Below, in pieces: positions 11,742-38,757 of a stretch of DNA of 41,811 nucleotides (its first letter is position 1; each line of letters opens with the position of its first letter). Made by a program: the position numbers and the translations under genes. The stretch is from positions 1 to 41,811 of the forward strand of contig JAUWZX010000005.1 in NCBI GenBank assembly GCA_030615175.1. Direction: 5' to 3'. Under the pieces are notes generated by a model. It made no database searches and was not told the DNA's origin. It saw only the letters and a program-made list of their open reading frames with translations. The stretch comes from Candidatus Parvarchaeota archaeon. GTDB lineage: Archaea > Nanobdellota > Nanobdellia > WJKC01.

Positions 11742-14700
11742 TTAACACACCCAAGACCCAGCAACAAATGCACAGCATTGCCCATCATGGCATACCTTAC
11801 CAGTATCACAAACAGTAGTATCATCTGCTATAGGTATATTACTACAGCTAGCAGCAGTACATGAATCAGTAGAACATATCACACCATCATCACAGGACTG
11901 CGTTGAGTAACTGCAAGCACTTCCTACAACAGGGCAGGAACCACTATAATAACGAGTTAAGCTAACACAATAAGAAGCACAATCACCAGCAACACAACAG
12001 GACGCGGTAGTGCCAAGACAAGAAACATCGCATACGCCGATTGCAGTGCAAACCTTACCAACAGCACAGGTCATGCCAAGACAATCAGCATCATCGCAGT
12101 CAAACAGGGAATCACCATCATTATCAACGAAATCACTGCAATCAATCTCCACCTTATCAAGCATATAGCACTTCCAGCCATCAACAGAATAACCATCACA
12201 ATAATCGTCAGCGCAGTCAATAAAGGTATCACAATCATCATCAACACCATTAACGCAGTTCTCAGAAGCAGGCGACAGCCAATCAACAAGAGAGAAATCA
12301 TCAATCAAAATCTTATCATAATAATCACTAATGAAAACACGCAACTTATAATCAGACTCAGGAGTCAATACCTCAACACAATTACTGATTAACTGAACAC
12401 CAGGCACAAGAGAAGGCATGACTTCAAAACTACTGCTGCAAACAACACTGCCATCAGAATCAAGGATTTGATAACCAGTCACTTCATCATACAAACCATT
12501 AAAATCATAAGGATAATACACTTCATTAGGCGAAGCAAACAAACTATACATACTGCCATCAACAGGAGGGCTGCCATCAGCCTGCTGAGGGCACGCTAAT
12601 AACTCAAACTTACCAGCAGGAGAAGTATTATCCAACCTGATGTCAGCCCTGCCGGCAAGCGCTACAACAGAATTAAAAGAATAACAATTCTCATACTCAA
12701 TAACCCCGGCACGCGTGCAGATATCAAAAGAATAAGGACGCGGAAAACCATGATTACAGTCAGGCAAATGACAAAAGACTTCCTGAGAAATAAAATCCTT
12801 CTTCAATATTGGAAGCCCAATGCCGTCAGGCCCGGCAGTATTAGTACAGTAAACAGGCATGTCATCAATCCTGACAGTGAAATTAAAGTAATCATAAGGC
12901 TCGAAACGCAGCTCCCTCTGATTAAAGGAAACGTTAAACCAGTAATCCTCACCACAAAACAAAACCTTGCCAAACTGCGACTCATCATGAGCAGGGCTAA
13001 TCTCATCATAAAACTCATTAACCTTCAATGACTCGGAAGGCACAATCAAATCAGGAAATAACTGGTCAAGAACGGTGACAGGATTCACATCACCATACTC
13101 AAAACGCACAAGAGGAGCAGCACTGCTAAAATCCAAACCATCACACGCATAAGGAACAGTGAAGCCTGAAATCCTATTAATAACGCCGCTATTTATGAAT
13201 AAAATACTTGAATGATTGGAAAAAAAGTTAAAACCAGAAGGAGACAACCCTAACTCAGTGAAACGGAAATCACTATTAACTAACTCAGCAAAAAAGAACT
13301 TACCAGTATCATTACTGAACACGAAATCAGCCACTCCATTAAGGTTTAAGTCACCGGCAGCAAGAAAGCTGACTCCAGTCTCAGGAGAAGCATTAGTGAT
13401 ATCCAAAGGAATGAATCCTAAACGCCCATAATTACGGTAAACCCCTAATGACTCCTCGCCAGTCAAGCCAATAATATCAGAATCACCGTCACCATCATAA
13501 TCCAAAACTAAAAAATCACTAGCAGCGAAAACAGACTTCTCAGGGTAAACGAGCTCAGGAATTAAATCATAATCAAGCATGAACACCCCCTCACCCTCAA
13601 CGCCGTAAAATAATTCACCAGAACCGCCTAACGCGAGCATGGTCACCTCACCACTCGTAGGAATAACAATCTTGCCACCTAAACGAGGAGACTGATGCTC
13701 AAAAATAGTGACTCCTGACTCATTACCAGCAATTAATTCATCACCACTAGAATCCTCAACCAAGTCAGCGCCAAGAATAAAATCATAAGAATTAATCTCA
13801 GGAGGAATGTAAAACGCGCCCTTAGTGCTTAAATTAAGGAATTCAACATCAAAAGCACTAATCGAGTAAAGACCAACACCGTCAAGCACTACCAAATAAT
13901 CATCAACACCTGCAATGCCTGAAATACCAGAAGCAATCACGCCCGAAGCATCAAACTCACTGCCATCAACGAACACGGAATCACCTGAAACGTAAAAGAA
14001 TTCACCATCAAAACCTTCAATGCTCAAGAAATTAAATAAATCAGCATTAATGCCCGCTGACTCCTCTGCAGGACTGAATTCATCAAAAGAGCATGAAACA
14101 TCATTAACCAAGTAATAATAATTACTCGTCTGATAATCATTATCCACATCAACACTAATGTGAACATCACCATCAGGAATAAAGGAAAATTCATACCAGT
14201 CATTAGCAAGGTCATAACCAAGCTCTAAAGGATTAAAAACGAATTCATGCCATGAAATAATGTCATCACAAACAATAACACCCAAATCAACTCCTTCAAG
14301 ACTAACGCTTAAATCCACACTACCTGAATCAGTAAAGCATTCAGTCATTATTTGAGCAAACCCATAATCCTCACGAGTCACGTTCTCACCAACATTAAAA
14401 CTAATTGAAAAAACATCACCCGCCCCAAGCAGTAAATTAGACTCTGCCTGCCCGTCATCATCCCTGAACTGCGCTCCACGGCCAAAAGTGCTCAAGTAAA
14501 CAGGCACCACATTATCCTCATTGTAAGCATAAATAGTCAAGTCAACAAGCGTCTTAAGATCATACTTAACCCTTGACAAACGATTACTGTAAAAACTGCA
14601 GAACTCTCCTTCACCAGAATCACTGCACCACACATCCTCATTAATTAAGTTAGACCCGCGATTAACGCCTAAACTAAGACCATAACGACTTAATGAATAA

Positions 14701-16466
14701 TTAAGAGCCCCGCCCCAATAACACTCACCGTCATTAAGAGGGAATAAGCGGTCGCAGCGGTCATGATGCCTTAACTCAAGATTATAAGTAGTGAAATAAC
14801 CCGTATCCACCTCCTCATCAGTCCAGTTCATTGCAAGAAACAAAGTCTTATTAGGAAGAGGGCACTCGCAGTCAGGGGCGCGGGAGGGGATATGAAACTC
14901 ATCAATCACTAAACTATCATTACATAATTCAGGAGGCACGAAATCCATTGCAGCCTCCTGCGCACCGCAAGAACATGAATCAATAAGCGTTCTTGAAGGA
15001 GGAGTTAACTTTGAAATATTCTGCACTCCAAAATTAAGCTTTGAAGGAATAACCTGCAGGACTAATTCAGAAATACATGTAGGGCACGGAATCTTCAGTA
15101 TAGCCCCCTTCTCAGGGTCGCATACCCAGTTATCACCAAACATGAAGTCACGCTCAACATTGCACCCGTTCACGCCGCAGCGCTCCTCACTCACATCCTC
15201 CTGATAATAACAAAGAGAATAATAACCCGCATTAACAACTAAGCCTGGAGGAGGACAGTACTCCCTAACGCCAGCCCATCCGCCGTAATCACGAGGCAGC
15301 CAAGTGCAATGATAATAGAAATCATAATCCTCCTCCATTAACCGCCTATACTTAAAATCCTCACACTGCCCCTGCTCACAGTACTCCTCAATGCAGTCAA
15401 CGCATGAAATCTTATTAATACAGTAATCCCCTTCACTGACAACGCCGTAGCAGTCAAGTTCCTCCACGCAATCACCAGCTTCATCATACTTAATGCATTC
15501 ACCGCACACGCGGTCCACAACGCTGCCGTCATCATTCAATATCTTAAGTAAATCAGTGCTCTCAGTGAACCCCCAGTTAGAAGGGTTATCCCACCCCCTT
15601 ACAGTGCCAAGGCATTCAATACGGTAATAACAGGAATTAAAATTAACATCATCAGTAAAATCATTGCTTAAATAAGAATTTTTACCCACACCACTATCAT
15701 TAATCTTGTTCTGAAGAGCCTGCCCGTCAAGTGCAATATTATCCGTCCCTAAAATCGTTCTTGCTGGCTGCACTCCATCAAGAATCTCGCTTATCAGGTG
15801 CTCATCATAACCGCAATACTTGCATGGCTCACCGCAAAGAGGCAAATCCCTGCACGCATAAACTCCAGTTTCTCCATTACAATACACATTACTTCCAGGA
15901 TACTTGCTTTCGCATTGAGTAAGATTACAGCACTCATAAGGAGTCCAATTACAATTAGTCACACGGTTATCACAACCACCCTGATTCCAATTCCAATAAT
16001 CACATGCCCATGGAGTTTCACTGCAATCAGCCTCATACCAATTACAACCACCATACGCGTCAATTCCCTTACAATCAGACTCTCCGCTAATACCAGAGCA
16101 ACGGTAAGTGCCGCCCCTGCAACATTTATATAATACACACGAACCCCAATAGCATTGACCATCAGTTTGCCTGCAGTCACTTTTACCTAAGTAACCACAC
16201 TCAGCCTTTGTCGTGGGACCGCAATGCCCTATAGCCCAGCTACAGCCCAAGTGAGCGCACTCATCTTCATAATTCAGAGTCTGAGACGGGTCTGTATCAT
16301 CCCATACATCACAACTGTAAGAACTGCCTGAACAATAACCACAATTATAAGAAGTCTTACCACAGCCAGCACCGCAAAGGTCAGGAGAGTCAGGGCAATC
16401 ACAGGCAGCGAAAGCAGTGCTGATAAAGAATACTGTTACCATAATTAATAATAAGTAAGCCCTCAT
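11742..16466 (-). CDS. Giant secreted cysteine-rich protein of the pilin operon
   Basis: This 1574-residue protein has a Sec-type signal peptide (LLLIMVTVFFISTAFA), with mature CDCPDSPDLC. The N-terminal 480 residues or so are extremely rich in Cys, Gly, Tyr and Trp, implying many disulfides. A central part (about 800-1110) has FG-GAP/VCBS-like repeats (VLDYDGDGDSDIIGL, AAGDLNLNGVADFVFSND), suggesting a Ca-binding beta-propeller. The C-terminal 215 residues or so carry acidic Ca-loop-like units (NGVDDDCDTFIDCADDYC, DNDGDSLFDCDDADC) and a Cys-rich end. Its start overlaps the stop of the preceding pilin-like gene in an ATGA junction, so it is the last gene of the operon. Unlike its neighbours it lacks a pilin-type leader. 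An adhesin or tip protein of the filament is a reasonable inference. Confidence 0.85.
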   Translation of the reverse strand: MRAYLLLIMVTVFFISTAFAACDCPDSPDLCGAGCGKTSYNCGYCSGSSYSCDVWDDTDPSQTLNYEDECAHLGCSWAIGHCGPTTKAECGYLGKSDCRQTDGQCYWGSCVLYKCCRGGTYRCSGISGESDCKGIDAYGGCNWYEADCSETPWACDYWNWNQGGCDNRVTNCNWTPYECCNLTQCESKYPGSNVYCNGETGVYACRDLPLCGEPCKYCGYDEHLISEILDGVQPARTILGTDNIALDGQALQNKINDSGVGKNSYLSNDFTDDVNFNSCYYRIECLGTVRGWDNPSNWGFTESTDLLKILNDDGSVVDRVCGECIKYDEAGDCVEELDCYGVVSEGDYCINKISCVDCIEEYCEQGQCEDFKYRRLMEEDYDFYYHCTWLPRDYGGWAGVREYCPPPGLVVNAGYYSLCYYQEDVSEERCGVNGCNVERDFMFGDNWVCDPEKGAILKIPCPTCISELVLQVIPSKLNFGVQNISKLTPPSRTLIDSCSCGAQEAAMDFVPPELCNDSLVIDEFHIPSRAPDCECPLPNKTLFLAMNWTDEEVDTGYFTTYNLELRHHDRCDRLFPLNDGECYWGGALNYSLSRYGLSLGVNRGSNLINEDVWCSDSGEGEFCSFYSNRLSRVKYDLKTLVDLTIYAYNEDNVVPVYLSTFGRGAQFRDDDGQAESNLLLGAGDVFSISFNVGENVTREDYGFAQIMTECFTDSGSVDLSVSLEGVDLGVIVCDDIISWHEFVFNPLELGYDLANDWYEFSFIPDGDVHISVDVDNDYQTSNYYYLVNDVSCSFDEFSPAEESAGINADLFNFLSIEGFDGEFFYVSGDSVFVDGSEFDASGVIASGISGIAGVDDYLVVLDGVGLYSISAFDVEFLNLSTKGAFYIPPEINSYDFILGADLVEDSSGDELIAGNESGVTIFEHQSPRLGGKIVIPTSGEVTMLALGGSGELFYGVEGEGVFMLDYDLIPELVYPEKSVFAASDFLVLDYDGDGDSDIIGLTGEESLGVYRNYGRLGFIPLDITNASPETGVSFLAAGDLNLNGVADFVFSNDTGKFFFAELVNSDFRFTELGLSPSGFNFFSNHSSILFINSGVINRISGFTVPYACDGLDFSSAAPLVRFEYGDVNPVTVLDQLFPDLIVPSESLKVNEFYDEISPAHDESQFGKVLFCGEDYWFNVSFNQRELRFEPYDYFNFTVRIDDMPVYCTNTAGPDGIGLPILKKDFISQEVFCHLPDCNHGFPRPYSFDICTRAGVIEYENCYSFNSVVALAGRADIRLDNTSPAGKFELLACPQQADGSPPVDGSMYSLFASPNEVYYPYDFNGLYDEVTGYQILDSDGSVVCSSSFEVMPSLVPGVQLISNCVEVLTPESDYKLRVFISDYYDKILIDDFSLVDWLSPASENCVNGVDDDCDTFIDCADDYCDGYSVDGWKCYMLDKVEIDCSDFVDNDGDSLFDCDDADCLGMTCAVGKVCTAIGVCDVSCLGTTASCCVAGDCASYCVSLTRYYSGSCPVVGSACSYSTQSCDDGVICSTDSCTAASCSNIPIADDTTVCDTGKVCHDGQCCAFVAGSWVC

Positions 16467-16948
16467 ACTGACACCCCTGAACCGCGCAAATTAAAACTTA
16501 ATTCAACCACTCCAGTATCCTCAATCCCGTGAAGAGGGAACCTGCAGACAGTAAATCCTTCGCTAAAAGCGCCGGCAGTCTCCTCAACATCACCAACAGT
16601 AACCCTGAAACCCATCCTGCCAGCAAGCAAAGGAAAAAGTTCATACGACTTATCACTCAAGTACTGGGCAGTAGGGTAAGTTCTCGCCTCACTAATCCCT
16701 AACTGAGAAAATAATAAGTCAACAGCGCCTAAACGCTCCTCAACCAGGACTTTAATATACTCATTACCAACCATTAACGGCAGAGTCGTTGAACAAGTAT
16801 ACTTAAAATTATTATCCTGAATCTGAATCACGCCGGCAAGAAAAAAGTTATTAACGTAAAAAGACTGCAATAATAAAATGATTACTGTAACAAGTATTAT
16901 GAATATTATCTCAAATATCAAACCCTCCATTGCACCCTTACGACTCAA
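16463..16948 (-). CDS. Type IV pilin-like protein, 161 residues
   Basis: A TTG start at 16948 gives MSRKGAMEGLIFEIIFIILV, a basic leader then a hydrophobic helix as in class III prepilins, with probable cleavage after Gly. This start is one base after the upstream TGA and has GAGGGTG about nine bases before it. The longer frame to 16987 would overlap the upstream gene by 38 nt and bury the leader. The rest is a soluble beta-rich head (FRVTVGDVEETAG, VVELSFNLRG). The 3' end overlaps the giant secreted-protein gene by 4 nt. Confidence 0.75.
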   Translation of the reverse strand: MSRKGAMEGLIFEIIFIILVTVIILLLQSFYVNNFFLAGVIQIQDNNFKYTCSTTLPLMVGNEYIKVLVEERLGAVDLLFSQLGISEARTYPTAQYLSDKSYELFPLLAGRMGFRVTVGDVEETAGAFSEGFTVCRFPLHGIEDTGVVELSFNLRGSGVSV

Positions 16949-16949
16949 T

Positions 16950-17528
16950 TCACAACACCCTCGCCTTAAATAATTCAGCTGAAGCACTGATTAATATTTC
17001 AACATAACCATAAGAGAATCTGTTATCATAAATAATTTTCACTGGCAGCACAACGTTCACATCAGTATTAGGATTAAAGAAGTAATCAAAATGCAGGTAA
17101 GAAGCGTAACCCTCATCATCACCTAACAAGTAATGAGCACCTGACTCATCATAAACCTTAACTCCTATGAAAACATAATACTCCTTTGTGTGCAACTGCG
17201 TGCACGCTTTCAGGCGTTCAACGCTTAACTTATTAGCATCAATTGAGTTAGGAAGAGTTATTTTATCAATAAAGTTATAATCAACACTTCCCTGCTGAAG
17301 CACATCATAAAAAACGCCTTTCTTAACATAAGCAAAGCAATTCTCACTATTAATTAACCGGTTAGCAATTAATAATGCCTCAGTAGTCCAGTCAGCCCTG
17401 CCAGTAGTTATTAAAGAACGGTCAACACTGTCAATAATTAAAACTGCAATAACTGAAGTTGACATGACCATGGCTATTGAAACGAATAATAATACTATTG
17501 TTGACGCGGCAGCCCTCCTATTCAACAC
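16950..17528 (-). CDS. Type IV pilin-like protein, 192 residues
   Basis: The N-terminus MLNRRAAASTIVLLFVSIAM has the basic-residues-then-Ala leader and a hydrophobic N-helix typical of archaeal prepilins. The head is mixed (YYVFIGVKVYDESGAHYLLG, NVVLPVKIIYDNRFS). The start is GTG 17528 or TTG 17525, overlapping the upstream stop by up to 11 nt. It lies one base before the next pilin-like gene. It is probably a minor pilin of the same filament. Confidence 0.75.
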   Translation of the reverse strand: MLNRRAAASTIVLLFVSIAMVMSTSVIAVLIIDSVDRSLITTGRADWTTEALLIANRLINSENCFAYVKKGVFYDVLQQGSVDYNFIDKITLPNSIDANKLSVERLKACTQLHTKEYYVFIGVKVYDESGAHYLLGDDEGYASYLHFDYFFNPNTDVNVVLPVKIIYDNRFSYGYVEILISASAELFKARVL

Positions 17529-19413
17529 GCTTATAACCTCCTAAACCAAAGTCATTATATAATGTCACATTGCCCATGCTTAAATCAATCCTGTAACCTT
17601 TAACCCCTTCTGGTGATGCATTATACATGGATAACTTGCAGTTCAACAAGTAATCAAGACCCATACCCTCACTTAATGATTCAAAAGCATTGCCCTTAAA
17701 AGAAGACATGTGACCAGTCACCATTCCCTGAATCCTCACACCCTCGCACCCGTCAAAATCATTGCCTTCATAAGGACCGCCATAAATGACATTGAAATTA
17801 TACTCCTGCTCTGTAGGGAATTCCTGCCTGAAAAGAGAGCTGAACAATGAACTGTCCTTATCATAAAAAGTAACATTCAATCCATCAGGAAAAGGAATCA
17901 TCCTGGTCAAGCCTTCCATATCGCATGGACGGTCATCACTATCAGCGGTTACTATGAACCCAACACTGCTGTCCTCTGCACAGTAAAAAGTAATCATGCA
18001 GTCCTTAGAAAAACCAGGACCCCACAAAACACTGTCAAAAGGAAAATAATTAATCTCCTGGCAGGCAGGACTAATACAGTAACCTCCCCTCTGCGTGTAA
18101 TAATCCATGTAAACACTTGCTTCAGTAAGATGATAATAATCACAGTCATCCCCCACGCCAGGATAGCATAATTCATAATCAGTCTCCAATTCTAACGTAA
18201 TATCAATATCTGTTTCAGGATAAAAACTATTATACAATAATAAGAATGAATTAATATTAGTGTCATTTACTTGTCCAGTACATGACTCTTCAACGCACAT
18301 GCCTCCAATCATGAATTCATAATCAGCACAGCATGACTCATTACTTTCCTCATCACATTCAAGTTTTGAAATATCCTTTAAATCATAACAAACATCCCTA
18401 ACCCATCCATCAGCAGGGCAGGCATCGCTTGATAAACTATGAATCCCGGGGCAGTACTCCTCGCATAAAACGGTTTCTGAACGCTTAATTATCCTGTAAC
18501 CAGAAGGCAGTATAACCGTGAAGTTCTCACTTAAGTCATTCCAGTAAGGAATTTCATCATAAAGAACATCACCCCATCCATTATCACATGACTTAAATAA
18601 CTCGGATAACAAGCCGCCCAGCCCCTCCCTTAAACTGTCCTTGAAATCAGCGGTTGAAACATGATTCCAGTAAGTTGATGCATAAAAAGTCAGGTTGCCT
18701 TCATATAAATTAAAAGTGTTAGGCATAACGCTTTTAGGCACTACTAGCGCCCTCCTCACTGCCTCAAAATCATTAAGGTCCAAGTAAAGTTCAGAAAAAG
18801 CCTCATAATCACTAGCCCCTCTGTAAAAACTGCCCTTGCCAAGCACAAGCACAGGATTCCAGTAAAAATCATTCTCAGGGTGAGGCCTGAAAGTGAATTT
18901 AACTCCATAAGAACCAGGCGAACCATTGTCCGGGTTGCGGTAAATCATTACCGGCTCTATCCTCTTAATCCACATTCCGTCGCAGACAAGCCCGCGCTCA
19001 TTAGCAGTTACTTCAGTAATGACCTGATTACTCTCCCTCTTAGGCCTGCCATCAGCGTGATAATTATCGCAGTCGCAGTAAACCATTAATAAAGGAATAA
19101 CAGGGTATAACTGCACTGTCAAAGGGTCAAACGCGACCCCGCAGTCAAGGCATTTATCCGTGATGCAGCTGCCTGGCAGCCCGGTACTGACATCAGTGAC
19201 TCCGGAAGGCATGGCGTATAATGAATTCTGAACTAATGAGATAAGATTGCCTGTTAACTTAATGCCAATAACAATGCTGATTTGCTCCTGAATAAAACTA
19301 CTAATCCCTGTCAGTATGAACATTGGACCAATAACAGCGATTATTATTATCGCAATCTGAACTATTAAAAAAGTTCCAGACCCCTGCGCCTTAATCGAAA
19401 GCAGGATAAACAC
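17518..19413 (-). CDS. Large pilin-like protein with Cys-rich ectodomain
   Basis: A protein of about 631 residues. Near its N-terminus SIKAQGSGTFLIVQIAIIII matches the KA|QG cleavage site and hydrophobic helix seen in the small pilins at 25153 and 25732. A second hydrophobic stretch follows (VIGPMFILTGI). The remaining 550 residues or so are extracellular in character, with many Cys pairs (ITDKCLDCG, EEYCPG, ESCCADYEF). The GTG start at 19413 lies within the end of the upstream gene (23-nt overlap) and has no clear ribosome-binding site. An ATT codon at 19395 directly before KAQG is an alternative. Far larger than an ordinary pilin; role unknown. Confidence 0.75.
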   Translation of the reverse strand: MFILLSIKAQGSGTFLIVQIAIIIIAVIGPMFILTGISSFIQEQISIVIGIKLTGNLISLVQNSLYAMPSGVTDVSTGLPGSCITDKCLDCGVAFDPLTVQLYPVIPLLMVYCDCDNYHADGRPKRESNQVITEVTANERGLVCDGMWIKRIEPVMIYRNPDNGSPGSYGVKFTFRPHPENDFYWNPVLVLGKGSFYRGASDYEAFSELYLDLNDFEAVRRALVVPKSVMPNTFNLYEGNLTFYASTYWNHVSTADFKDSLREGLGGLLSELFKSCDNGWGDVLYDEIPYWNDLSENFTVILPSGYRIIKRSETVLCEEYCPGIHSLSSDACPADGWVRDVCYDLKDISKLECDEESNESCCADYEFMIGGMCVEESCTGQVNDTNINSFLLLYNSFYPETDIDITLELETDYELCYPGVGDDCDYYHLTEASVYMDYYTQRGGYCISPACQEINYFPFDSVLWGPGFSKDCMITFYCAEDSSVGFIVTADSDDRPCDMEGLTRMIPFPDGLNVTFYDKDSSLFSSLFRQEFPTEQEYNFNVIYGGPYEGNDFDGCEGVRIQGMVTGHMSSFKGNAFESLSEGMGLDYLLNCKLSMYNASPEGVKGYRIDLSMGNVTLYNDFGLGGYKRVE

Positions 19414-25152: not shown

Positions 25153-25368
25153 TCACGCACCATCCTCGCCTGACTGCCAGCCAGGAAGAGTTTCCAATGC
25201 TGATGAAATATTAATTCCTTCAGTAACAGTCTTGCTCGTGCCTGAGATTATACCCCCCTGCTCTGATAACCCTGCAAAGAAGAACACTGCAACAGCAACT
25301 ACTACTAAGACAACTAAAATTATTACCCCAATCATTTGTATGGGCATGCCCTGTGCTTTCCTGCTCAT
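25153..25368 (-). CDS. Small class III pilin, 71 residues
   Basis: MSRKAQGMPIQMIGVIILVV has the K-A|Q-G cleavage motif of euryarchaeal-type class III signal peptides, followed by a long hydrophobic helix. The polar C-terminus is short (LETLPGWQSGEDGA). It is a plausible structural or minor subunit. It abuts the 52-residue gene. Confidence 0.8.
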   Translation of the reverse strand: MSRKAQGMPIQMIGVIILVVLVVVAVAVFFFAGLSEQGGIISGTSKTVTEGINISSALETLPGWQSGEDGA

Positions 25369-26452: not shown

Positions 26453-26476
26453 TAGAATAAAATTAGGGCTTGCACG

Positions 26477-26485
26477 TTTATAAAT
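26477..26485 (-). promoter_or_regulatory. Internal TATA-like box ahead of the small pilin cluster
   Basis: tttataaat on the plus strand is centred 29 nt before the ATG at 26452 and lies just inside and downstream of the end of the preceding gene. It would allow the small pilins to be made in excess of the rest of the operon. Confidence 0.5.
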
Positions 26486-26489
26486 TTTC

Positions 26490-28175: not shown

Positions 28176-28180
28176 TTCTT

Positions 28181-30178
28181 TTAAACACCACACTCATTCA
28201 CAACATCCGCTATGAACCCTTCCTTATCATCAGGGTTATCAAGGAATTCAGCGCATGCATTTACTAAATCACTTAATGAGGCATCACTCCACTCATTACC
28301 GCAGGCGACTCCAGCATAACTCTCATGAGTCACTTCATTTACATCAAACTGCGTCTTGCACTCTGTTAATAAATAATCATCATCCAAATTATTAAATGAC
28401 TTAATCAGGCGATACCTGCAGTACGGCTCCACGCTCCTGTGATACTGGTTAATGTTAAAGATTGAACCCTGAATATCAATGATGTACGTGCCTCCGTAAA
28501 ATTCAGGCGCTGACTCCAGATAATCACAAGGATTATACGAACCATACGCTCCTAATGGTTCAACAGTTACTTCATTATTAGTAATGCAGTTTATTTCTTC
28601 ACTATAATAACCGCACTGCTCCACTAACTCCATGCAAGGGCATGGAAGACTGCAAGCGCCTAACTCAAGTGAAACCGTAATTGGTGGTGGAACAATGCCT
28701 GATGAACTGTCAGGAATTCCTAAAGTCCTGAATGCTGCGTACTCCATTATTGCAAGGTCCGCGCAAGTTCCTCTCTTTTGAATCATGGTTTCCCATGCGG
28801 GCTGGCAGTCAGGGTCAGCGTCCCCTCCGCCACTAACCGCCCCGTACTTCTCAAATTCATAATTGCATGCATCATAAGGGCCATTATAACAAGTAAGATT
28901 AACTAAATCCATGCCAGTCCTTGGCATTAAAGTATAATTTACCGGGTCGAAACGTTCTTTTAAACTTCTTAAGTCAAGGCAGTTAATGTAACCGTAATTC
29001 TTTAAGCCAGGATTATTAAGGCAGAAACTATGCATGTTATAACCACCAATTAATCCTAAACTCTGAATCTCCACCTCATCATTGCAGTCACCTTTAAAGC
29101 AGTTATGCAGAAATTCCACTGCATCATCATAGTAATTAAGGAATGACACTGCAGTAGTCTCTTCATAAACAATGTCAGGACAGTTAAAGCATAATTGAGG
29201 CACTGAATACGCATCCAAAAACTTCGGGGCCCGCACAACCAGAGTCTTATAAGATGCTTCTGTTAAATCATAAAGGTATACTTCCTCTATTAATTCATAA
29301 TCCATAACAACCCAGCCAAGGTAATTATAATATGATAACTCAGAACTTTGTGAAACAACAAAAGGATGATTAAAGACTTCTCCTTCAATTGTCTTGCTTA
29401 TAATATCATCAATCACTTCTATGTGATTTGCTTCACAGCCATCATTCACTCCATCAACATCACTGCAATCCAGATTATTTTCGTCAAGGTAATTAATTAC
29501 TTCCTGATTTAACTTAAACACCAAATTATCAGATATTGCAGTCCTAATAGTTTCCGTAATATAATCATACTTGTACTTGCCGTACTCTAATGCCATCTGG
29601 ACAAAGTCAAGTAATTGATAATTGCACGAGAAATATAATGGCAGTCGTTCAATAACTGAGAAGTCAAGTCCTTCCTTTTTCTCGCAAAAACCCTTAACTT
29701 TATTGCACTTGAAAAGGCATAACTCTAATTCACTGCTAGAGCACGCCTCGCATTCATCAGGCAAGTCAAATAATCCATTATTATAATCTTCACAGCAGTT
29801 ACAGCACTCCTTGCATGAATCATCTGGTTCATCACAAACGCAGGCGCCGCAAGTGCAGGAACCACTAATTAAGTACTTCTCGCACTCAGGCGGCGGGCAG
29901 TTAGACTTGCAGTAAGCCGTACAGCACTCATCATCATCAATACATAACGTATCAGATATTCCATAATTCATTACCGCCACTTCCTCATCACTTAAGTCAG
30001 AGAGGCAGAAGTAAGCGCACGGAATCTCAAAATAAGAGATGTCAGGAATGAACACACTGATTGTGTCAAGAACATCCTCAGTCATCGGTGCAGTGAAATT
30101 AGAAACCGCTGTTGCCACGATAATAATTACTATAAGTACTATAATCAGTTTTAATATTGAAGCTGTAGCAAACCTCAA
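28181..30178 (-). CDS. Pilin-like protein with Cys-rich and degenerate transglutaminase-like domains
   Basis: The leader-helix is MRFATASILKLIIVLIVIII. Residues about 79-165 form a dense Cys-rich module (DDECCTAYC, SGSCTCGACVC, KECCNCCEDY). Further on, KRGTCADLAIMEYAAFRTLG (Cys472) and LPCPC (512-516) align with the transglutaminase-like neighbour. However, the segment aligned with that neighbour's His (SIFNINQY) has no His in the same place, so catalysis may be lost here. At 665 residues it is about 100 longer than the neighbour, mostly because of the Cys module. The two genes arose by duplication and are separated by only five bases. Confidence 0.75.
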   Translation of the reverse strand: MRFATASILKLIIVLIVIIIVATAVSNFTAPMTEDVLDTISVFIPDISYFEIPCAYFCLSDLSDEEVAVMNYGISDTLCIDDDECCTAYCKSNCPPPECEKYLISGSCTCGACVCDEPDDSCKECCNCCEDYNNGLFDLPDECEACSSSELELCLFKCNKVKGFCEKKEGLDFSVIERLPLYFSCNYQLLDFVQMALEYGKYKYDYITETIRTAISDNLVFKLNQEVINYLDENNLDCSDVDGVNDGCEANHIEVIDDIISKTIEGEVFNHPFVVSQSSELSYYNYLGWVVMDYELIEEVYLYDLTEASYKTLVVRAPKFLDAYSVPQLCFNCPDIVYEETTAVSFLNYYDDAVEFLHNCFKGDCNDEVEIQSLGLIGGYNMHSFCLNNPGLKNYGYINCLDLRSLKERFDPVNYTLMPRTGMDLVNLTCYNGPYDACNYEFEKYGAVSGGGDADPDCQPAWETMIQKRGTCADLAIMEYAAFRTLGIPDSSSGIVPPPITVSLELGACSLPCPCMELVEQCGYYSEEINCITNNEVTVEPLGAYGSYNPCDYLESAPEFYGGTYIIDIQGSIFNINQYHRSVEPYCRYRLIKSFNNLDDDYLLTECKTQFDVNEVTHESYAGVACGNEWSDASLSDLVNACAEFLDNPDDKEGFIADVVNECGV

Positions 30179-30181
30179 GAC

Positions 30182-30313
30182 CTAAAACCTCAATACGTTA
30201 ATTGATTCATTAACTCCTGATTCCAGATAACCAGCTATTGTTATTGCTAATAATATTAAAATCAATAACACAATAACTGTTATTACTGCAATTGCAATCG
30301 TCTTAAATTCCAT
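30182..30313 (-). CDS. Mini pilin-like protein, 43 residues
   Basis: The ATG directly follows the upstream TAA. The product begins MEFKTIAIAVITVIVLLILI and ends in a short polar tail (NESINVLRF). It is essentially one N-terminal helix with a single Lys before it, like the other mini-pilins. The stop is three bases before the next start. Confidence 0.65.
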   Translation of the reverse strand: MEFKTIAIAVITVIVLLILILLAITIAGYLESGVNESINVLRF

Positions 30314-31180
30314 TTAAGTAACCACCGCCGTTGATACATCATAAGTGCAAAGTATTAACTGGTCAGCAGAAGCGGAAGCAGAGACAGTGTAGCACAGCGT
30401 CTCAGTAGACGTCTTGACTCTTGAAATTGCCTGGAAGAACTGGTCAATATAGTATAATCCTACCACGTACTTCCGCTTTTTCCCGTCACAAATCATATTA
30501 TAACCAAGAATCCCTCTGAACCCGAGAAAAGGATTCTCAGCGCCTAATAAGTCAGAATACCTTTTCTGAATATCACCAATGCTATAAAAATGAGTGTCAG
30601 CATACCTGTTAAGGAATACCTGGTCAATGATTATTGAACCACCAGACTCTGTTAGTGAATCATAAATATCCTCATACTCTTCATACATATTCTTAATCCA
30701 CTGAGGGTAAACGCCATCACTTAATGAATCACACTTTAAGTCAATTGTTTGCTCAAAACAAGTGAATTGATTGCCTCCCTCGTACATCACTAACGGGTCC
30801 CACCGGCCCTCCCCGAACACATCCCAGCACCTGATGGATTCATCCATTACTTTCCTGGTCAGAACGTCAAGCGTGACGTAATCAGTGTAATCAACTGCGG
30901 GTCCAGGATAACAGGCAAGAGGGACAGACATTAAACTAACTGCTGCACCGCCAAACCCTCCAGTAAGTGTTCCAACAGCACCTAAAAGCGTCTCAACCAC
31001 GGGGTTGCCGAGCGTGGCAGCCCTGAAGAACACGTTAATCTTGCAGATTGAGTCAGAAAGCCCTCCAGTAATTATTGGATAAAAAGAGAACACGAGTGAC
31101 AAGACGATGAACGCGACTACTGCAAATAATATTACCATCACTATTGAATTAAATCCTAATTCAGTGCCTCTTCGATTCAT
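30314..31180 (-). CDS. Pilin-like protein, 288 residues
   Basis: MNRRGTELGFNSIVMVILFA is a prepilin-like leader with RRG and a following ELGF motif that the upstream 51-residue mini-pilin shares. A second, Gly-rich hydrophobic stretch (LLGAVGTLTGGFGGAAVSL) follows. The soluble head has six or so Cys (ACYPGP, IRCWDVFG, FTCFEQ, LKCDS). Its start overlaps the upstream stop in an ATGA junction. Confidence 0.75.
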   Translation of the reverse strand: MNRRGTELGFNSIVMVILFAVVAFIVLSLVFSFYPIITGGLSDSICKINVFFRAATLGNPVVETLLGAVGTLTGGFGGAAVSLMSVPLACYPGPAVDYTDYVTLDVLTRKVMDESIRCWDVFGEGRWDPLVMYEGGNQFTCFEQTIDLKCDSLSDGVYPQWIKNMYEEYEDIYDSLTESGGSIIIDQVFLNRYADTHFYSIGDIQKRYSDLLGAENPFLGFRGILGYNMICDGKKRKYVVGLYYIDQFFQAISRVKTSTETLCYTVSASASADQLILCTYDVSTAVVT

Positions 31181-31332
31181 CCAATAACACTCCTCTTGCC
31201 GAAAATACTGCCTGCTTCAACAGCAGGATTAACTATTAAAATGAATAGTAAAGTAAGTATTATTATAATTACTACTGCAAGTATTGCAATAACTATCTCC
31301 TTAAAACCTAACTCAATTGCTCCAAGCCTCAC
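31177..31332 (-). CDS. Mini pilin-like protein, 51 residues
   Basis: A GTG start gives MRLGAIELGFKEIVIAILAV: an RLG leader, then AIELGF and a hydrophobic helix, with a short tail (GSIFGKRSVIG). Its Glu in the N-helix recalls the +5 Glu of bacterial type IV pilins. It overlaps the 288-residue gene by 4 nt, and the two share the ELGF motif. Confidence 0.65.
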   Translation of the reverse strand: MRLGAIELGFKEIVIAILAVVIIIILTLLFILIVNPAVEAGSIFGKRSVIG

Positions 31333-31365
31333 TATTAATAATTAACTAGCTCTTCAAATAAATAA

Positions 31366-31503
31366 TTATATGATAAAAGGAATGTTTATTTGAGAACCTG
31401 CCTGGTAAGTAAAAGTAAGGATGAATATTAAAATAATAATGAATATTGCTATGACTACGAGTAATAATCCTAATACTGAACCCCATTTAATGTCAAGCAC
31501 CAT
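31366..31503 (-). CDS. Mini pilin-like protein, 45 residues
   Basis: The product begins MVLDIKWGSVLGLLLVVIAI and ends in a short polar stretch (YQAGSQINIPFII). It starts three bases after the stop of the platform-protein gene, so it is the first small product of the run. Basic residue and hydrophobic helix fit a pilin N-domain or a small membrane partner of the secretion machine. Confidence 0.6.
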   Translation of the reverse strand: MVLDIKWGSVLGLLLVVIAIFIIILIFILTFTYQAGSQINIPFII

Positions 31504-31506
31504 TTT

Positions 31507-33612
31507 TTAACCAAACACTAATCCTGCCTCCACAGCAACTCTTGCAATGCCAGTGAACACGGTAGTGACGGCGAAAGTCACTATTACATAAATGATTAAA
31601 CCAATTGGAAGCATTCTTGAAATAAGGTCAAATTTGAATAAAGGGTCGCCTGCTAACTCTATATCACCATCAATCATTGATAATAAAATGATTATTTCAA
31701 CAACGTAAATGCCAACAACTGGCTGGAAAATAAATAATGGGATTGCTTTACTAACCTGGAATATCCCAAGAATCCATGTGCCAGCACCCATGCCAAAAGC
31801 CGCTCCTCCTTCATCAGCCATCATGCCCACAACCTGCGTGCCTAATATGTCAAGGATTATTAATATCATGGCTGTTAATCCAACAACGAGTCCTGAAATT
31901 ACTGGCGCTAAAAAACTTGACTGGAACTTCATGCTTGAAAGAGTTTCAGACAATATATCCCTGACTTTTTCATCAATCCTGTGAATATCCCTTAAGTAAT
32001 TACTCATGTTAACAAGACTTATTGCTGCAACGTCAAGGCTTTTCTTAGCACTCATGACTGCAACGTTTAAAATACTCTTAACAATTGCTGAAGGATAAAA
32101 ACGAATCGCGCCAATCTTAGGGTCAAAGATTGCTGATTCAACATCCATTCCTAATTCATTAATATTCTTGCTTATCTCGCCGAACAACCTGGAAGTTGCT
32201 GACTCACCCATAATACTGGCAACCTTTGTAAGAGCTATTTCTAAAGGGTAACCTTCACCAAGCCTGTTACCTAACTGGAAGGTTGCGTCAGCGAACTCGC
32301 GCTCAATCTCCTGCAACTCCTTTCTAATCTTCATCCTTGAAGTAGCAAGTAATTTGCCGTAAATAATCATTGCAGCAGCCGGCGCTGCAACAATTAACAG
32401 TGTTGCGTAAATATCCATTTCCTGAGGCTTTATTGAAGCATACATTGGAAAGTAAAAGAACATTGGGAGCAGTAATAAGAACGCGACTATTGCTGCAGGA
32501 ATCCATGCTGAGTAAGCCTTCCTGCCTTCCCCTTTACCCATGAAGAACTTGCCTTTCGGCGGCACGTCAGGATGAATACTGATATCCGGTATCGGGAAGC
32601 CTGCAGGCCTCTTAGCCAGCGAGTACTTGGCGAACACGAAAACAGCTATTGGCAGTATAACATCATAAAGCACTATTAATGCTAATGGATTAACAATATC
32701 ACTTAGGAAAGCACCCATTATAGGGAACATGACTAATCCAAGAACTGGAAGCATTATGCCCATCATGTAAAGCATGTTGATAGGAGTCCTTAAAGCATTA
32801 GCGTACCTAATCATCTGCTCATAAGTCCCTTCAAGAGATAAATCTAATGATTTATTAAGCATCCTAATCCTTGCATCCTCACTCCCCTGGTAAAGACTTG
32901 CTTCAATTAAGTGCACTGCGTCAACAAATACTGGCGAAGTTTCCTTCCAGTTCAACACATAACTATCCAATGCTTCCTTCATGCTTGCATACTTGCGTGA
33001 CTGAACATCCCATAATAACTTCTTAAAGTCATTGCCCAGCGCTGTCTCCAAGTTATCAGCAACGAATTTAACAGCTGCCTCTAAATTACTCGTTGTGCGC
33101 ATGAAGATAACCATGTAAAGTATTGACAGTATTAATTCTGAAGAGGCGCGGGCTCTTCTAATATCAAGCATCCTGTCAGGGTAATTTGTTATGTACATGA
33201 ACGCGCCGAACCCTGCCACTGCCAGCAATAGTCCTCCAGGACCAACGAATAAGAATGCAATAACACCCATTATTAGGAAAAGTATTATTGCCATTATGCC
33301 AAGCGAATAAATATCCGCTGGCTCAACATCTAGTCCAAGCAATCTTATCTTTACTTCTAATTTATCCTTTGTCTTCTGGTCAAGAGCGAATTTAATGCCA
33401 AGACTTCTTGACCATTTAGCGAGTTTCTCAAACCATTCTCCTCCTGCCGTTTTTTCTTTTTCAAAAATCTTAAACTCCCTTGAACGCGCAATTATTTCCT
33501 TTTTCTGCGCTTCTATGCCTGCACCGGTTTCAGGCTTCTTCTCCTTAACTCTATCCTTTAAGTATTTCTCCTTTAACTCCCTCTCTATCTGCGCTTTAGT
33601 TTTCTTTGCCAC
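31507..33612 (-). CDS. TadC/FlaJ-like platform protein of the secretion system
   Basis: This 701-residue polytopic membrane protein is the inner-membrane scaffold that works with the secretion ATPase in type IV pilus and archaellum assembly. After a charged cytoplasmic N-terminus (about 1-100), membrane pairs (IMAIILFLIMGVIAFLFVG; MLYMMGIMLPVLGLVMFPIM) alternate with two T2SSF-like cytoplasmic domains: ASSELILSILYMVIFMRTTS and later FADATFQLGNRLGEGYPLEI. This two-domain layout is typical of archaeal FlaJ/TadC proteins. Its start overlaps the ATPase stop by 17 nt, and it is followed by the pilin-like genes. Confidence 0.9.
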   Translation of the reverse strand: MAKKTKAQIERELKEKYLKDRVKEKKPETGAGIEAQKKEIIARSREFKIFEKEKTAGGEWFEKLAKWSRSLGIKFALDQKTKDKLEVKIRLLGLDVEPADIYSLGIMAIILFLIMGVIAFLFVGPGGLLLAVAGFGAFMYITNYPDRMLDIRRARASSELILSILYMVIFMRTTSNLEAAVKFVADNLETALGNDFKKLLWDVQSRKYASMKEALDSYVLNWKETSPVFVDAVHLIEASLYQGSEDARIRMLNKSLDLSLEGTYEQMIRYANALRTPINMLYMMGIMLPVLGLVMFPIMGAFLSDIVNPLALIVLYDVILPIAVFVFAKYSLAKRPAGFPIPDISIHPDVPPKGKFFMGKGEGRKAYSAWIPAAIVAFLLLLPMFFYFPMYASIKPQEMDIYATLLIVAAPAAAMIIYGKLLATSRMKIRKELQEIEREFADATFQLGNRLGEGYPLEIALTKVASIMGESATSRLFGEISKNINELGMDVESAIFDPKIGAIRFYPSAIVKSILNVAVMSAKKSLDVAAISLVNMSNYLRDIHRIDEKVRDILSETLSSMKFQSSFLAPVISGLVVGLTAMILIILDILGTQVVGMMADEGGAAFGMGAGTWILGIFQVSKAIPLFIFQPVVGIYVVEIIILLSMIDGDIELAGDPLFKFDLISRMLPIGLIIYVIVTFAVTTVFTGIARVAVEAGLVFG

Positions 33613-36600
33613 TTAAATCCATCTCCTTCCTGAACACCTTAACCTTTTCTTTAAGCCATGCCTCATATAATCTTAGAACATCCTTTGTTTCAGGGTAGCC
33701 CATCTCGCTTGATAACCTGTCAAATATTTTATGGAAAGCATCATTTGCTTCAACCATGAAGTCAGCCTCGTACAACTCCATCACTCCTGACTTCTCAGCG
33801 TAATCCTTAATTAATTCCTTTGTCCTAGTCCTTAAATTAATGTTCTCCCAGACAGCATCCCAGTTACCAGCCCATTCCCTGACCCTGCCGGCAATGCTTT
33901 TCAGCACTTCACTCTCGCCTTCAAGCAAGTCCCTCGTAGGCACTAATTTATTTGATTTAGAGTCATAAGTCATTAGAGTTACGAAACCATGCTCCCTTAC
34001 AGGATCCTCCTCCCAGTCTTTCCTTATTTCTGTTATATCAACTAATTTCCTGACTTCCCTTAAACCTGAAGGGTCTCTTATCTTGTTTGCAATCATTATT
34101 ATATCAGTTGCCTTAAAACTAGTTCTTGGAACTTCCAAGTCATTAACAACTCTGTCAAACACTCCGTAAGCACTGTCACCGTGAATAGTTCCTGCAACAA
34201 CGTTTGCCAGGGCGCCGACCCTCATTGCCTCATATAATGCTTTTGCTTCAGTGGACCTAATTTCACCCATTATCAGGCTTGAATCGCCAAGACGCAGTGA
34301 AGTCCTTATGCCGTCAGCTGCTGATAACTCACTTTTGCTTCCAACAATAGCGCTTCTAACCTTCATTGATACAATGTTGTAACCAATATTGCGCATGTAA
34401 TTAATAGGTAATTCAAGAGTGTCTTCTATAACGATTATCCTGTAACGCCTCATTATCTCTATAAGTAAGGATTGCAGTAATGAAGTGTTATGCACTACAA
34501 TATTATTTGCTATGAAATTATGCGTGCCTTCAACCTCTAAGTCATAAACGTAACCTTCATCATTAATTACTCTATCAACACTGACTACTTCATCAAAGAA
34601 TACTTCCGAGCCTGCTAGTATCCTAAGGTTTTCAATAATAGTTTTAAATCTTGATAATTCATTTGATTTGAGACTATTTAATTCAATAATTCTCCTTTCA
34701 AAAGTATTAAGTATTTCTTTTAATTTTTTCTTGCTTGGATTACATATTCCTTCAAAATCACCCTTCAAGTTCTTCATGAATAATCCTTTATATAATTCTT
34801 TTAAGGGCTTGCTGATATTAGGGATTACTTTAACATTCTTCACTTCATGACTGAAACCTGTTTTTTCATAGTAATTCCTTAATGAATCATCACTATTAGT
34901 GAACATTAATTTGCTTTTATTAACGTGGCTATCACTAATGAAGTCCATAAACTCAGGCATCTTAACAGGCCGGGACAAGTGTACTTTTAATAAAGTATTT
35001 TTATTAATACAAGCATAATTAAACCCTGATTTCTCATTAGTAACAGCATTAATTAATTTCATCCTGCGCTTGTATTTCTCAAGCAAGTTTAAAGGAGTTC
35101 TTAATATTTCAGGAACAGTTATGAAATCCTTTTTCTTTATTTGCTCTGCAAAAACTTCAGTTAACACTCCATTTTTTATGGTATAAAACGGGTGTTCAGG
35201 CGTGACTCTCACTTTCCTTCCTGAACGAGTCATAACTTCAATAACATCTGTTAAATATTTTCTTTTATAAACTGCTTTTACTTCCTTTTCTTCAAAACAC
35301 AAGTTCCCAGTATTCATTGTTAAAACTTTTATTGGTTTCTCAGGGACTCCTATAAAACCATCATCTGTTCTTTCACTATTAATTAATAACACGTTATCCA
35401 CCAGTTCTTTTATTGGCTTAAGTGAACCGCCAGCAAGCTGCACTAATGAATCCCCTGTCAAGCACTTCCCTGAACCTCTGGTGCCTGCCACAAGCATTGG
35501 ACGCGCGCCGTCAATCAGGAAACTAATTAAGCCAGCTGATAAAGGCGTTATCATCCCAACCTTCATGAATAACGGCAGAGTCCAGGGCCTTTCCCTGTGC
35601 CTCCTGAAAGTGAATGCCAGACCTGTAGGGCTTAAAGGCTTCTGTATTACTGCAACCCTTGCCCTGGCTTTTTTAGTTTCTAATTCAGTGTCAAGGACTG
35701 GATTAGCCTCGTCTAAAGCTCTTCCAGAAAGCATTCTGAACCTTGAAGCCCAGGCTTTTGCCTCCTTAATATTTGGATAAATATTTGTCTCGCACTCTCC
35801 GTGAATCGAGTGCTTGAAGATTATTGGCGTACTGCCTACAGGCGCGTTAACGTAAATATCTTCCACTTTTTCATCCTCTAATAACACTTCTATTAAACCG
35901 AAGCCGACTGTAAGCCTCATTAATATTCTTGCAAGTTTTTCAATTTTCTTATAGGACATCTTTATTTCATTATTGCGCGCTAACTCCTCAACCAAGTCCT
36001 TACCGATATTAAAGAATACTTCCCTCATACGCGTAGGGTTTACGAATTCCTCCCTTCTGGGCTTGAATTTAACCATTATCTGTCTTGCCTCGTCAAGTAA
36101 TGTATAATCATTCTCGTCAAGTTTAAATTCCGGCGGCACTATGTGATACACATACCTTATCTTATCAGGTAATTCGTATACGACTACATCATTCTCCCCC
36201 ACCCTATACGAGTCAATCTCCTCAGCCCTCATCGGCGGCTCTGATATCAGTCTCGTGTACATGAAGTTAGGTTTGATTATTGGCTCAAAAACCACTGTGT
36301 ATAATTCCCTGTCACCTACTTTATAGCCTGGAAGTTTATCCTTAATCAATCTTATTATTTTTAATCCTGCAATATCCTTCACAATGTCTTCAATTATTGC
36401 TGCATACTCAGTTACGCATTTCCTCTCACTCTCACCTTCAGTTATCTTAAGCCTTGACCTTATCGTCCTATAATGCCTTAAAGCAATTAAGTAAGCGCCT
36501 ATTGGGTCGCTTTTCAGGGTGTTAATTATTTCTCTTACCTTCACAACGTAGTCAGGAATTACTTTTCTGCACTTCTCGCTTATTAATTCTATTGACAGCA

Positions 36601-36874
36601 CTTTCTTTTCCTTAACCAGTTTAATGAATAGTGATGCAAGTTCATTCATTAATTTAGCCTGCGTTAAAGGGTAAATATAATTCCTCTCAGCCTCGAATAT
36701 TATTGTCGTTACTGAACCAGTTTCCATTAACTTGTTAACAGTGTCATCCATGCATAAAGGATTGTTCTCAATGCTTGGATAACTAGTAGGGTCTTTCCAC
36801 TTTATTATTAGGTTAACCTCTGTCCCTTCCCTTTCAATTTCATAGTTCTTTTCTTTTTTAGGGTCCTCAGGCAT
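33596..36874 (-). CDS. Type IV pilus/secretion ATPase split by an intein
   Basis: A VirB11/GspE-family ATPase that powers pilin polymerisation or secretion. The precursor is 1092 residues. The Walker A loop GTRGSGK (464-470) is interrupted by a 326-residue intein, and TSLLQ follows at 797. Downstream are the Asp box IIVIEDTLEL, Walker B region LIMGEIRSTEAKALYEAM and His box GTIHGDS. After splicing the enzyme would be 766 residues. An SD-like GGAGGGG lies about ten bases before the ATG. It heads the 25-kb pilin operon and is divergent from the coiled-coil pair on the plus strand. The P-loop is non-functional until the intein is removed, so splicing controls activity. Confidence 0.93.
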   Translation of the reverse strand: MPEDPKKEKNYEIEREGTEVNLIIKWKDPTSYPSIENNPLCMDDTVNKLMETGSVTTIIFEAERNYIYPLTQAKLMNELASLFIKLVKEKKVLSIELISEKCRKVIPDYVVKVREIINTLKSDPIGAYLIALRHYRTIRSRLKITEGESERKCVTEYAAIIEDIVKDIAGLKIIRLIKDKLPGYKVGDRELYTVVFEPIIKPNFMYTRLISEPPMRAEEIDSYRVGENDVVVYELPDKIRYVYHIVPPEFKLDENDYTLLDEARQIMVKFKPRREEFVNPTRMREVFFNIGKDLVEELARNNEIKMSYKKIEKLARILMRLTVGFGLIEVLLEDEKVEDIYVNAPVGSTPIIFKHSIHGECETNIYPNIKEAKAWASRFRMLSGRALDEANPVLDTELETKKARARVAVIQKPLSPTGLAFTFRRHRERPWTLPLFMKVGMITPLSAGLISFLIDGARPMLVAGTRGSGKCLTGDSLVQLAGGSLKPIKELVDNVLLINSERTDDGFIGVPEKPIKVLTMNTGNLCFEEKEVKAVYKRKYLTDVIEVMTRSGRKVRVTPEHPFYTIKNGVLTEVFAEQIKKKDFITVPEILRTPLNLLEKYKRRMKLINAVTNEKSGFNYACINKNTLLKVHLSRPVKMPEFMDFISDSHVNKSKLMFTNSDDSLRNYYEKTGFSHEVKNVKVIPNISKPLKELYKGLFMKNLKGDFEGICNPSKKKLKEILNTFERRIIELNSLKSNELSRFKTIIENLRILAGSEVFFDEVVSVDRVINDEGYVYDLEVEGTHNFIANNIVVHNTSLLQSLLIEIMRRYRIIVIEDTLELPINYMRNIGYNIVSMKVRSAIVGSKSELSAADGIRTSLRLGDSSLIMGEIRSTEAKALYEAMRVGALANVVAGTIHGDSAYGVFDRVVNDLEVPRTSFKATDIIMIANKIRDPSGLREVRKLVDITEIRKDWEEDPVREHGFVTLMTYDSKSNKLVPTRDLLEGESEVLKSIAGRVREWAGNWDAVWENINLRTRTKELIKDYAEKSGVMELYEADFMVEANDAFHKIFDRLSSEMGYPETKDVLRLYEAWLKEKVKVFRKEMDLSGKEN
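34487..35464 (-). mobile_element. Intein in the P-loop of the secretion ATPase
   Basis: The intein starts with Cys1 (CLTGDSLVQLAGGS), has block B RVTPEHPFYTI, block F DEGYVYDLEVEGTHNFI and ends VVHN, with Thr as the +1 residue. It is 326 residues long. The 180 residues or so between blocks B and F are too long for a minimal intein but show no clear LAGLIDADG motif. FMDFISDSHVNKSKLMFTNS and LYKGLFMKNLKGDFEG look like eroded versions. This suggests a splicing-competent intein with a decayed homing endonuclease. Confidence 0.93.
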
Positions 36875-38756: not shown

Positions 38757-38757
38757 T

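Follow-up and report, generated by a model that had tools for sequence, protein, structure and literature searches.

Multi-component type IV pilus (T4P) loci that encode large adhesins have already been described in Archaea (PMC4858521), as have pilin-like class III proteins of well over 1000 residues (PMC4371748). The system analyzed here is an operon of 19 genes in a 41,811-nt stretch (the window; all coordinates are positions in it) of contig JAUWZX010000005.1 of a Candidatus Parvarchaeota archaeon, a tiny, probably host-dependent cell (genome G000). We consider it quite likely that this operon specifies a distinct, DPANN-wide assembly machine that resembles a type IV pilus and is unusually rich in minor pilins; that the machine serves contact with, or attachment to, other cells is a suggestion to which we give clearly less weight.

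With the archaeal T4P of methanococcal clade 1 (Epd) and of Thermoproteales, as presented in the available part of the T4P census (PMC4858521), the operon shares an ATPase, a TadC platform and several class III proteins, as well as large Cys-rich or DUF2341 adhesins, an association with transglutaminase-family peptidases and fast-evolving components. It differs from them in that its 766-aa ATPase and 700-aa platform protein represent a DPANN-wide family, in the number and size of its pilin-like proteins (~16, five of them with 567-1044 aa), in the enzyme-like domains placed on pilin-like N-termini, and in a divergent coiled-coil-like gene pair upstream. Where that part of the census refers to nanoarchaea, it mentions ATPases only, one class of them without identified cognate pilins. 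The Sulfolobus bindosome (Bas) likewise combines class III proteins several times the size of a pilin with a T4P-type ATPase and platform (PMC4371748), but its subunits bind sugar, and this assignment was rejected because none of the nine window proteins scanned matched a solute-binding-protein family in Pfam. The archaellum also has a FlaI-like ATPase, a FlaJ-like platform and class III subunits; it was rejected because the window genome contains no match to archaellin (PF01917), and in two relatives that do have archaellin genes (G100 and G127) these lie away from the locus. In the literature searched, which mostly did not include subscription papers, there was no description of the DPANN-wide operon, of protease-bearing pilin-like proteins or of the intein reported below. 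An earlier note on this DNA, made from its sequence alone, had proposed an undescribed surface machine, which was overstated in view of the giant pilin-like proteins and large-adhesin T4P loci cited above. As there are precedents both for class III proteins of giant size and for archaeal pili with many components, the operon is an elaborated T4P and not a new class of machine.

The 19 consecutive open reading frames (ORFs) occupy the minus strand from 36874 to 11742 and encode an ATPase and a platform protein, followed by 16 proteins with a single N-terminal helix (45, 51, 288, 43, 665, 567, 144, 110, 102, 71, 52, 794, 1044, 631, 192 and 174 aa) and by a 1574-aa secreted protein; for three of them alternative longer or inner starts exist (567/561, 144/124 and 174/161 aa). 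The intergenic gaps, in operon order, are -17, 3, 33, -4, 0, 3, -13, -23, 13, 18, 36, 0, 87, -4, -23, -11, -38 and -4 bp, a spacing compatible with a single transcript. A scan for sigma-70 promoters and terminators, whose models are uninformative for archaea, remained at chance level. The one-strand run of overlapping or abutting genes that the earlier note had listed was recovered completely, some ORFs having slightly longer alternative starts, and so was its claim of a short N-terminus and a hydrophobic helix in all 16 products behind the platform protein: each has one strong hydrophobic segment that starts no more than ~45 residues from the N-terminus. The protein that ends the run is secreted, as had been supposed, with an ordinary Sec-type signal, not a pilin N-terminus, and FG-GAP repeats. 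The background, composed of ten 20-kb stretches of the same genome and the flanks of the window, contains 250 ORFs, of which 22 belong to the single-N-helix type, and the density of such genes on one strand never exceeds 3 per 10 kb in the own-genome background, as against 9 directly after the window platform gene.

This arrangement is widely conserved. Homologues of the platform protein were found in 360 of the 371 genomes sampled across the phylum Nanobdellota/Nanoarchaeota. Among the named matches are records with the labels Nanoarchaeota, Parvarchaeota, Woesearchaeota, Pacearchaeota, Aenigmatarchaeota and Jingweiarchaeum. The ATPase gene lies directly 5' of the platform gene in 62 of 75 loci, and a homologue of the divergently oriented 224-aa gene is present at 50 of the 75; the conserved unit also takes in the divergent gene pair upstream of the operon (~36959-38065, plus strand). 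Of 52 sampled loci, 33 have between 7 and 13 single-N-helix genes on the same strand in the 9.9 kb downstream of the platform gene, compared with 0-1 in upstream stretches, so that the conserved synteny in DPANN relatives, on which the earlier note had made its proposal depend, was indeed found. The near relatives G168, G147, G033, G232, G036 and G298 repeat the plan: ATPase, platform, early proteins of large or medium size, a block of small pilins of the KAQGLP type and a second block of large proteins; in G168, G147, G298 and G036 the operon ends with Cys-rich, Sec-type giants of 875-2777 aa. The giant genes were also sought in the 82% relative G371, where only a contig with the ATPase-platform pair and no transglutaminase-like match was found; as this assembly is fragmentary, the absence is meaningless.

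The two lead genes had been correctly recognized as a secretion ATPase and a TadC/FlaJ-like protein, with the correction that an intein enlarges the ORF of the ATPase. The ATPase matches T2SSE (PF00437, E-value 1.8e-13), with TadA and FlaI as the best-fitting models, and an intein-free orthologue (from G147) finds A. fulgidus 2oap as the closest solved structure, followed by CpaF and FlaI, which places the protein in the PilB/TadA/FlaI superfamily. The intein is recognized by its splicing domain (PF14890, E-value 1.2e-28) and by both NCBIfam models of the splicing regions (TIGR01445 and TIGR01443); it has a Cys1 at its start and HN followed by Thr at the C-terminal junction, and it is inserted exactly at the Walker A Thr, so that splicing restores an intact motif (GSGK/T). 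The 326-aa intein accounts for the 1092-aa ORF, the mature ATPase having 766 aa; near relatives with a complete gene have ATPases of 751-769 aa. The corresponding site is empty in L055, the nearest relative found (platform 82% identical), which has an uninterrupted GTRGSGKTSVLQ, and the insertion is therefore probably recent. ATP hydrolysis by the machine would be impossible before the intein is spliced out. Odd-sized ATPase matches in two other loci, L093 (a 1243-aa ORF) and L116 (with a TGDHSL motif), may hold inteins at other sites.

The platform protein was assigned at the level of its family, of which 4 of 8 members match T2SSF (PF00482, best E-value 3.5e-4); comparison of the family alignment with PDB sequences returned no platform match. 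A prepilin peptidase of the A24 family is encoded in the window genome (PF01478, E-value 2.4e-13, at C5:149308), while in G228 such a gene adjoins the locus (PF01478, E-value 3.1e-9) and in G027 a prepilin-peptidase-like gene is situated at it. The window genome also contains a second pilus locus, of the PilA/PilB3 type (C5:312-323 kb; L160:2626-13075), and another ATPase-TadC pair at C5:37 kb, and the window operon therefore constitutes an additional, different T4P-type system. The PilA/PilB3-type locus encodes a pair of closely similar pilins (ITPVIAVVLL) along with a pilin-like protein of 938 aa (MKRAQFF).

Class III sites were called by a rule cruder than FlaFind or SignalP 6, namely [KRDE][GAS] correctly placed before the helix. 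This strict motif is present in 46% of 490 operon N-helix proteins (relatives and window) vs 13% of 364 other N-helix proteins of the same loci (25% of the single-pass ones among these). The expectation of class III sites in most genes is thus only partly borne out, as an enrichment; among operon proteins of at least 350 aa the motif is found in only 38%. In the window the context is clear in ~10 of the 16 proteins, good sites being present in the 51-aa (via its L055 relative), 288-aa, 124/110/71-aa, 102-aa, 794-aa, 1044-aa, 631-aa, 192-aa and 161-aa products. Three of the five giants (794, 1044 and 631 aa) have a fitting site, that of the 561-aa protein (EA/NQ) is doubtful and that of the 665-aa protein does not fit. 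The KAQG and IGQG small pilins, together with the operon-wide enrichment, identify the system as one with pilin-type class III components.

Most operon components have diverged beyond BLAST detection, and profile clusters merged short helices (c00), so the families were re-compared with the N-helix removed. The most widespread component is family A (288 aa), related to families from Woese- and Pacearchaeota-type loci (hhalign 88.8% and 96.5%, E-values 2.5e-6 and 7.9e-10), in which its counterparts are proteins of 238-495 aa near the front of the operon. Family C (192 aa) forms a profile family in 17 genomes (near relatives vs Woesearchaeota-type: hhalign 95.8%, E-value 7.1e-9), and the small pilins of the near relatives match those of Woesearchaeota-type loci with a profile E-value of 1.4e-6, the window pilins more weakly (6.8e-5). 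For family B, the near-relative group was aligned with the 794- and 1044-aa proteins with an E-value of 1.6e-4 at a probability of only 50.7. Judged by these profile comparisons, families A, B and C and the small KAQG pilins are common to several GTDB families despite extreme divergence. The 794-aa protein clusters with proteins of 290-453 aa that occupy the same operon position and occur as tandem pairs (G168, G232, L059); at least one giant therefore looks like an enlarged form of a component of ordinary size. The 665/567-aa pair has a larger homologue of 1247 aa (L056/G149), and the 631-aa protein has no homologue detectable by sequence. An AlphaFold2 (AF2) model of the 288-aa protein consists of a helix (residues 6-57) and four strands. 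Besides its N-helix, the 794-aa protein contains additional, weaker hydrophobic stretches (~residues 165-235), which are odd for a pilin ectodomain; this protein could be membrane-active.

The large ectodomains had been described in the earlier note as Cys-rich and enzymatic-looking, and in the relatives they include truly enzymatic and adhesive domains. In the window, the 665- and 567-aa proteins exhibit the Cys nucleophile motif GxC-[DE]-F...LFRxxGIP in the form GTCEDFxxMQYSLFRxIGIP. The 665-aa protein matches PF01841 below the cut-off (E-value 0.0032), the profile of both proteins matches LapG (4fgo, E-value 0.008), and there are weak cross-matches to proteins with bona fide transglutaminase cores. 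In the three-way 665/567 alignment the His (HAW) and Asp of the triad are unrecognizable, and a Cys-rich CDLPCPC stretch is found instead; for this reason the identity of the pair (665/561 aa) as full-triad transglutaminases was rejected and we do not call the proteins active enzymes. They are probably not standard enzymes. Surface modules identified in large operon proteins of the relatives include PKD, Laminin_G, TSP3, DUF2341 and, in one protein of one relative, S_layer_C, among others. Three genomes encode a protein in which a papain domain (Peptidase_C1) follows an N-terminus of pilin-like type: G127 (502 aa, E-value 3.3e-17; N-terminus KRVQINLL), G100 (483 aa, E-value 1.0e-18) and G027 (679 aa; N-terminus NKRG/GTITNF), the last of which is encoded among other pilin-like genes, a platform gene and the prepilin-peptidase-like gene. 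At these loci (L176:10324-11832, minus strand; L206; L204) a KNPxAV-type Cys-rich protein is encoded directly after the papain protein each time. The T4P census (PMC4858521) associates archaeal T4P with surface peptidases of the transglutaminase family and treats DUF2341 as a mark of candidate pilus-tip adhesins.

It is a serious possibility, to which we give somewhat less than an even chance, that the system is an ordinary adhesive T4P for attachment to surfaces or in biofilms, with lineage-specific inflation of the minor pilins and no special cell-cell role: Thermoproteales and methanogen T4P loci are also rich in fast-evolving Cys-rich parts and large adhesins (PMC4858521), FlaFind positives extend well past 1000 aa (PMC4371748), and adhesin-type domains occur in the relatives' operon proteins. 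However, the PilA/PilB3-type locus already exists in the same genome beside the different system of the window, and the fact that presumed ectosymbionts have kept the system almost universally, despite their very small genomes, speaks for a core role in the lifestyle. We regard it as rather unlikely that the large N-helix proteins are membrane-anchored envelope proteins (S-layer-like proteins, proteases) co-expressed with a small pilus that consists only of the KAQG pilins and small peptides. The absent or weak class III context in the 665- and 561-aa proteins, the 38% frequency of the strict motif among large operon proteins and the S_layer_C domain of one relative all agree with such anchoring, but the 794-, 1044- and 631-aa proteins have good class III sites, the N-termini given above for the papain proteins (G027 and G127) are pilin-like, and family B includes members of normal size (290-350 aa) at the same operon position. 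A pseudopilus that works as a type II-like piston, exporting the 1574-aa protein and proteases instead of displaying a fibre, appears improbable; a giant Sec-type protein does end the operon in several relatives and many short single-helix peptides are encoded, but a secretin-type partner is not expected in a single-membrane cell, and the large proteins keep their N-terminal anchor and hence are not free substrates. A chance run of unrelated membrane-protein genes, to which the low similarity of most genes between relatives might point, has a negligible probability and is refuted by synteny, as order and content are conserved over at least 30 loci against a near-zero background and the components show profile homology.

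The interpretation as a distinct DPANN-wide pilus-like machine has, in its turn, several observations against it. In 19 of the 52 loci only 0-4 single-N-helix genes follow the platform gene, the ATPase-platform pair being apart from a pilin cluster that is located elsewhere or was not found. The cleavage contexts are weak, unconvincing or absent in the proteins of 45, 43, 52, 665 and 561 aa. The window platform protein alone has no significant match to T2SSF in Pfam. The 288-aa protein gave an AF2 model of only medium confidence (predicted local distance difference test, pLDDT, 69), and a Foldseek search of the PDB with it returned nothing better than an E-value of 0.69 and no solved pilin, while the model of the 561-aa protein, built from a three-sequence alignment, has a mean pLDDT of 30. 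Finally, the giants may be anchored separately instead of entering a filament.

Table 1. Genes and elements of the operon and of the divergent pair upstream, in order of transcription of the operon
Feature	Position	Strand	Basis or remark
Secretion ATPase, TadA/FlaI/GspE2-like	33596..36874	-	ORF 1092 aa; spliced 766 aa
Intein, 326 aa, ATPase residues 471-796	34487..35464	-	Walker A, GTRGSGK/TSLL
Platform protein, TadC/FlaJ-like, 701 aa, multi-helix	31507..33612	-	Family-level PF00482 T2SSF
45-aa single-helix peptide	31366..31503	-	L055 counterpart MATLDIKWSSAIG...
51-aa single-helix peptide, RLG/AIELGF	31177..31332	-	L055 orthologue VRKG/AFELGF
288-aa pilin-like protein, family A, RRG/TELGF	30314..31180	-	Profile comparison, AF2
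43-aa single-helix peptide	30182..30313	-	ORF and N-terminal helix
665-aa pilin-like protein with 46 Cys and a Cys-helix motif of transglutaminase type	28181..30178	-	Weak PF01841, LapG
567 (561)-aa pilin-like paralogue of the 665-aa protein	26490..28193	-	Alignment, GTCEDFxxMQYSLFRxIGIP
Small pilin, 144 aa (124 from inner ATG), IG/QGLP	26078..26512	-	Grouped with the 110- and 102-aa pilins; homologues in other families
Small pilin, 110 aa, KA/QGLP class III site	25732..26064	-	Canonical KAQG motif
Small pilin, 102 aa	25405..25713	-	BLAST cluster common to 144/124- and 110-aa pilins
71-aa pilin, KA/QGMP	25153..25368	-	KAQG motif
52-aa single-helix peptide	24994..25152	-	ORF and N-terminal helix
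794-aa pilin-like protein, family B, RRG/II	22522..24906	-	Profile cluster
1044-aa pilin-like protein, family B, RKA/SI	19391..22525	-	N-domain like 794-aa protein by eye (CLCLFQ motif)
631-aa pilin-like protein, KA/QGSG	17518..19413	-	Class III motif
192-aa pilin-like protein, family C, RRA/AAS	16950..17528	-	Profile family
174 (~161)-aa pilin-like protein, RKG/AMEG	16463..16987	-	Motif and helix
1574-aa Sec-signal secreted protein, 99 Cys, FG-GAP repeats	11742..16466	-	PF13517 E=3e-7
224-aa divergent cytoplasmic coiled-coil-like gene	37391..38065	+	24-43% identity in relatives, same divergent position
143-aa divergent coiled-coil-like frame, orthologue of ~130-aa genes in relatives	36959..37390	+	Homology

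The smaller member of the divergent pair (36959-37390, plus strand) is an open frame of 143 codons without ATG, GTG or TTG before codon 95 (37241), which indicates either a non-standard start or a sequence error. Upstream of the pair, three tandem membrane proteins (182, 196 and 233 aa) are encoded at 38079-39900 on the minus strand; homologues occupy the corresponding position in G036, G074, G317, G298 and G148. At the other end, in G168, G147, G036 and G298 (L038/L039, L040/L041, L049/L050 and L051/L052), the operon runs straight into a cluster that contains ftsZ along with Alba-, FKBP-, SecE-, NusG- and ribosomal-protein-like genes, and the machine therefore adjoins cell-division and translation genes there.

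G127, which is likely to be Nanobdella aerobiophila MJ1, belongs to the same genus group as G100. The latter is Nanopusillus acidilobi, a cultured ectosymbiont (PMC4935971), and carries a split version of the locus. In both genomes the ATPase and platform genes share one place with the divergent coiled-coil-like pair, and a further platform gene lies elsewhere, accompanied by genes for 9 or 10 proteins of pilin-like type (92-549 aa), the papain-pilin being one of them. The two places are at C1 82-101 kb and 378-398 kb in G100 and at C1 84-103 kb and 424-443 kb in G127. N. aerobiophila and its relative YN1 attach to their hosts via an organelle composed of a cone, a portal and a 7-nm tube, and N. 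aerobiophila also bears an unidentified 15-nm rough appendage (PMC11104419, PMC11420986). This elaborate host-contact apparatus belongs to the same phylum as the window system, but it is known only from cryo-tomography, with no gene assigned to it. We speculate, as an unlikely but specific possibility, that the locus might determine (part of) the Nanobdellota organelle, its tube or the 15-nm appendage, and that protease-fold and adhesive heads of the giant pilins might open the host S-layer. The link is kept at this low level because there are alternatives, namely the archaellum and other T4P systems. A role in host attachment is plausible, its best support being that a cultured ectosymbiont carries the locus.

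For the proposed pilus-like machine, the following mode of action appears most likely. Prepilins would be inserted by Sec and trimmed by the A24 prepilin peptidase of the same genome. The TadA/FlaI-like ATPase, presumably a hexamer that becomes active only after excision of the intein from Walker A, would drive the platform protein, which would push N-terminal helices into a short filament built from the small KAQG pilins. Families A (288 aa), B (the paired 794- and 1044-aa proteins) and C (192 aa) would be conserved minor pilins that form an initiation, base or tip complex. Adhesive and cysteine-protease-fold-like ectodomains would be displayed by the large members rich in Cys and by the 1574-aa FG-GAP protein, which Sec would export. 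Such a machine would probably bind, and perhaps locally cut, the surface of another archaeal cell.

In this conserved locus of many components, protease domains, and ectodomains 500-1000 residues in length, are joined to pilin-type N-termini, which broadens current ideas of what may be displayed on a type IV filament. For the central question of how DPANN archaea keep hold of their hosts and feed on them, the locus, whose motor is near-universal in the phylum, provides a concrete and compact candidate gene set for the host-attachment apparatus, and as this set is present in N. acidilobi, which has a published proteome, it is open to localization and proteomics.

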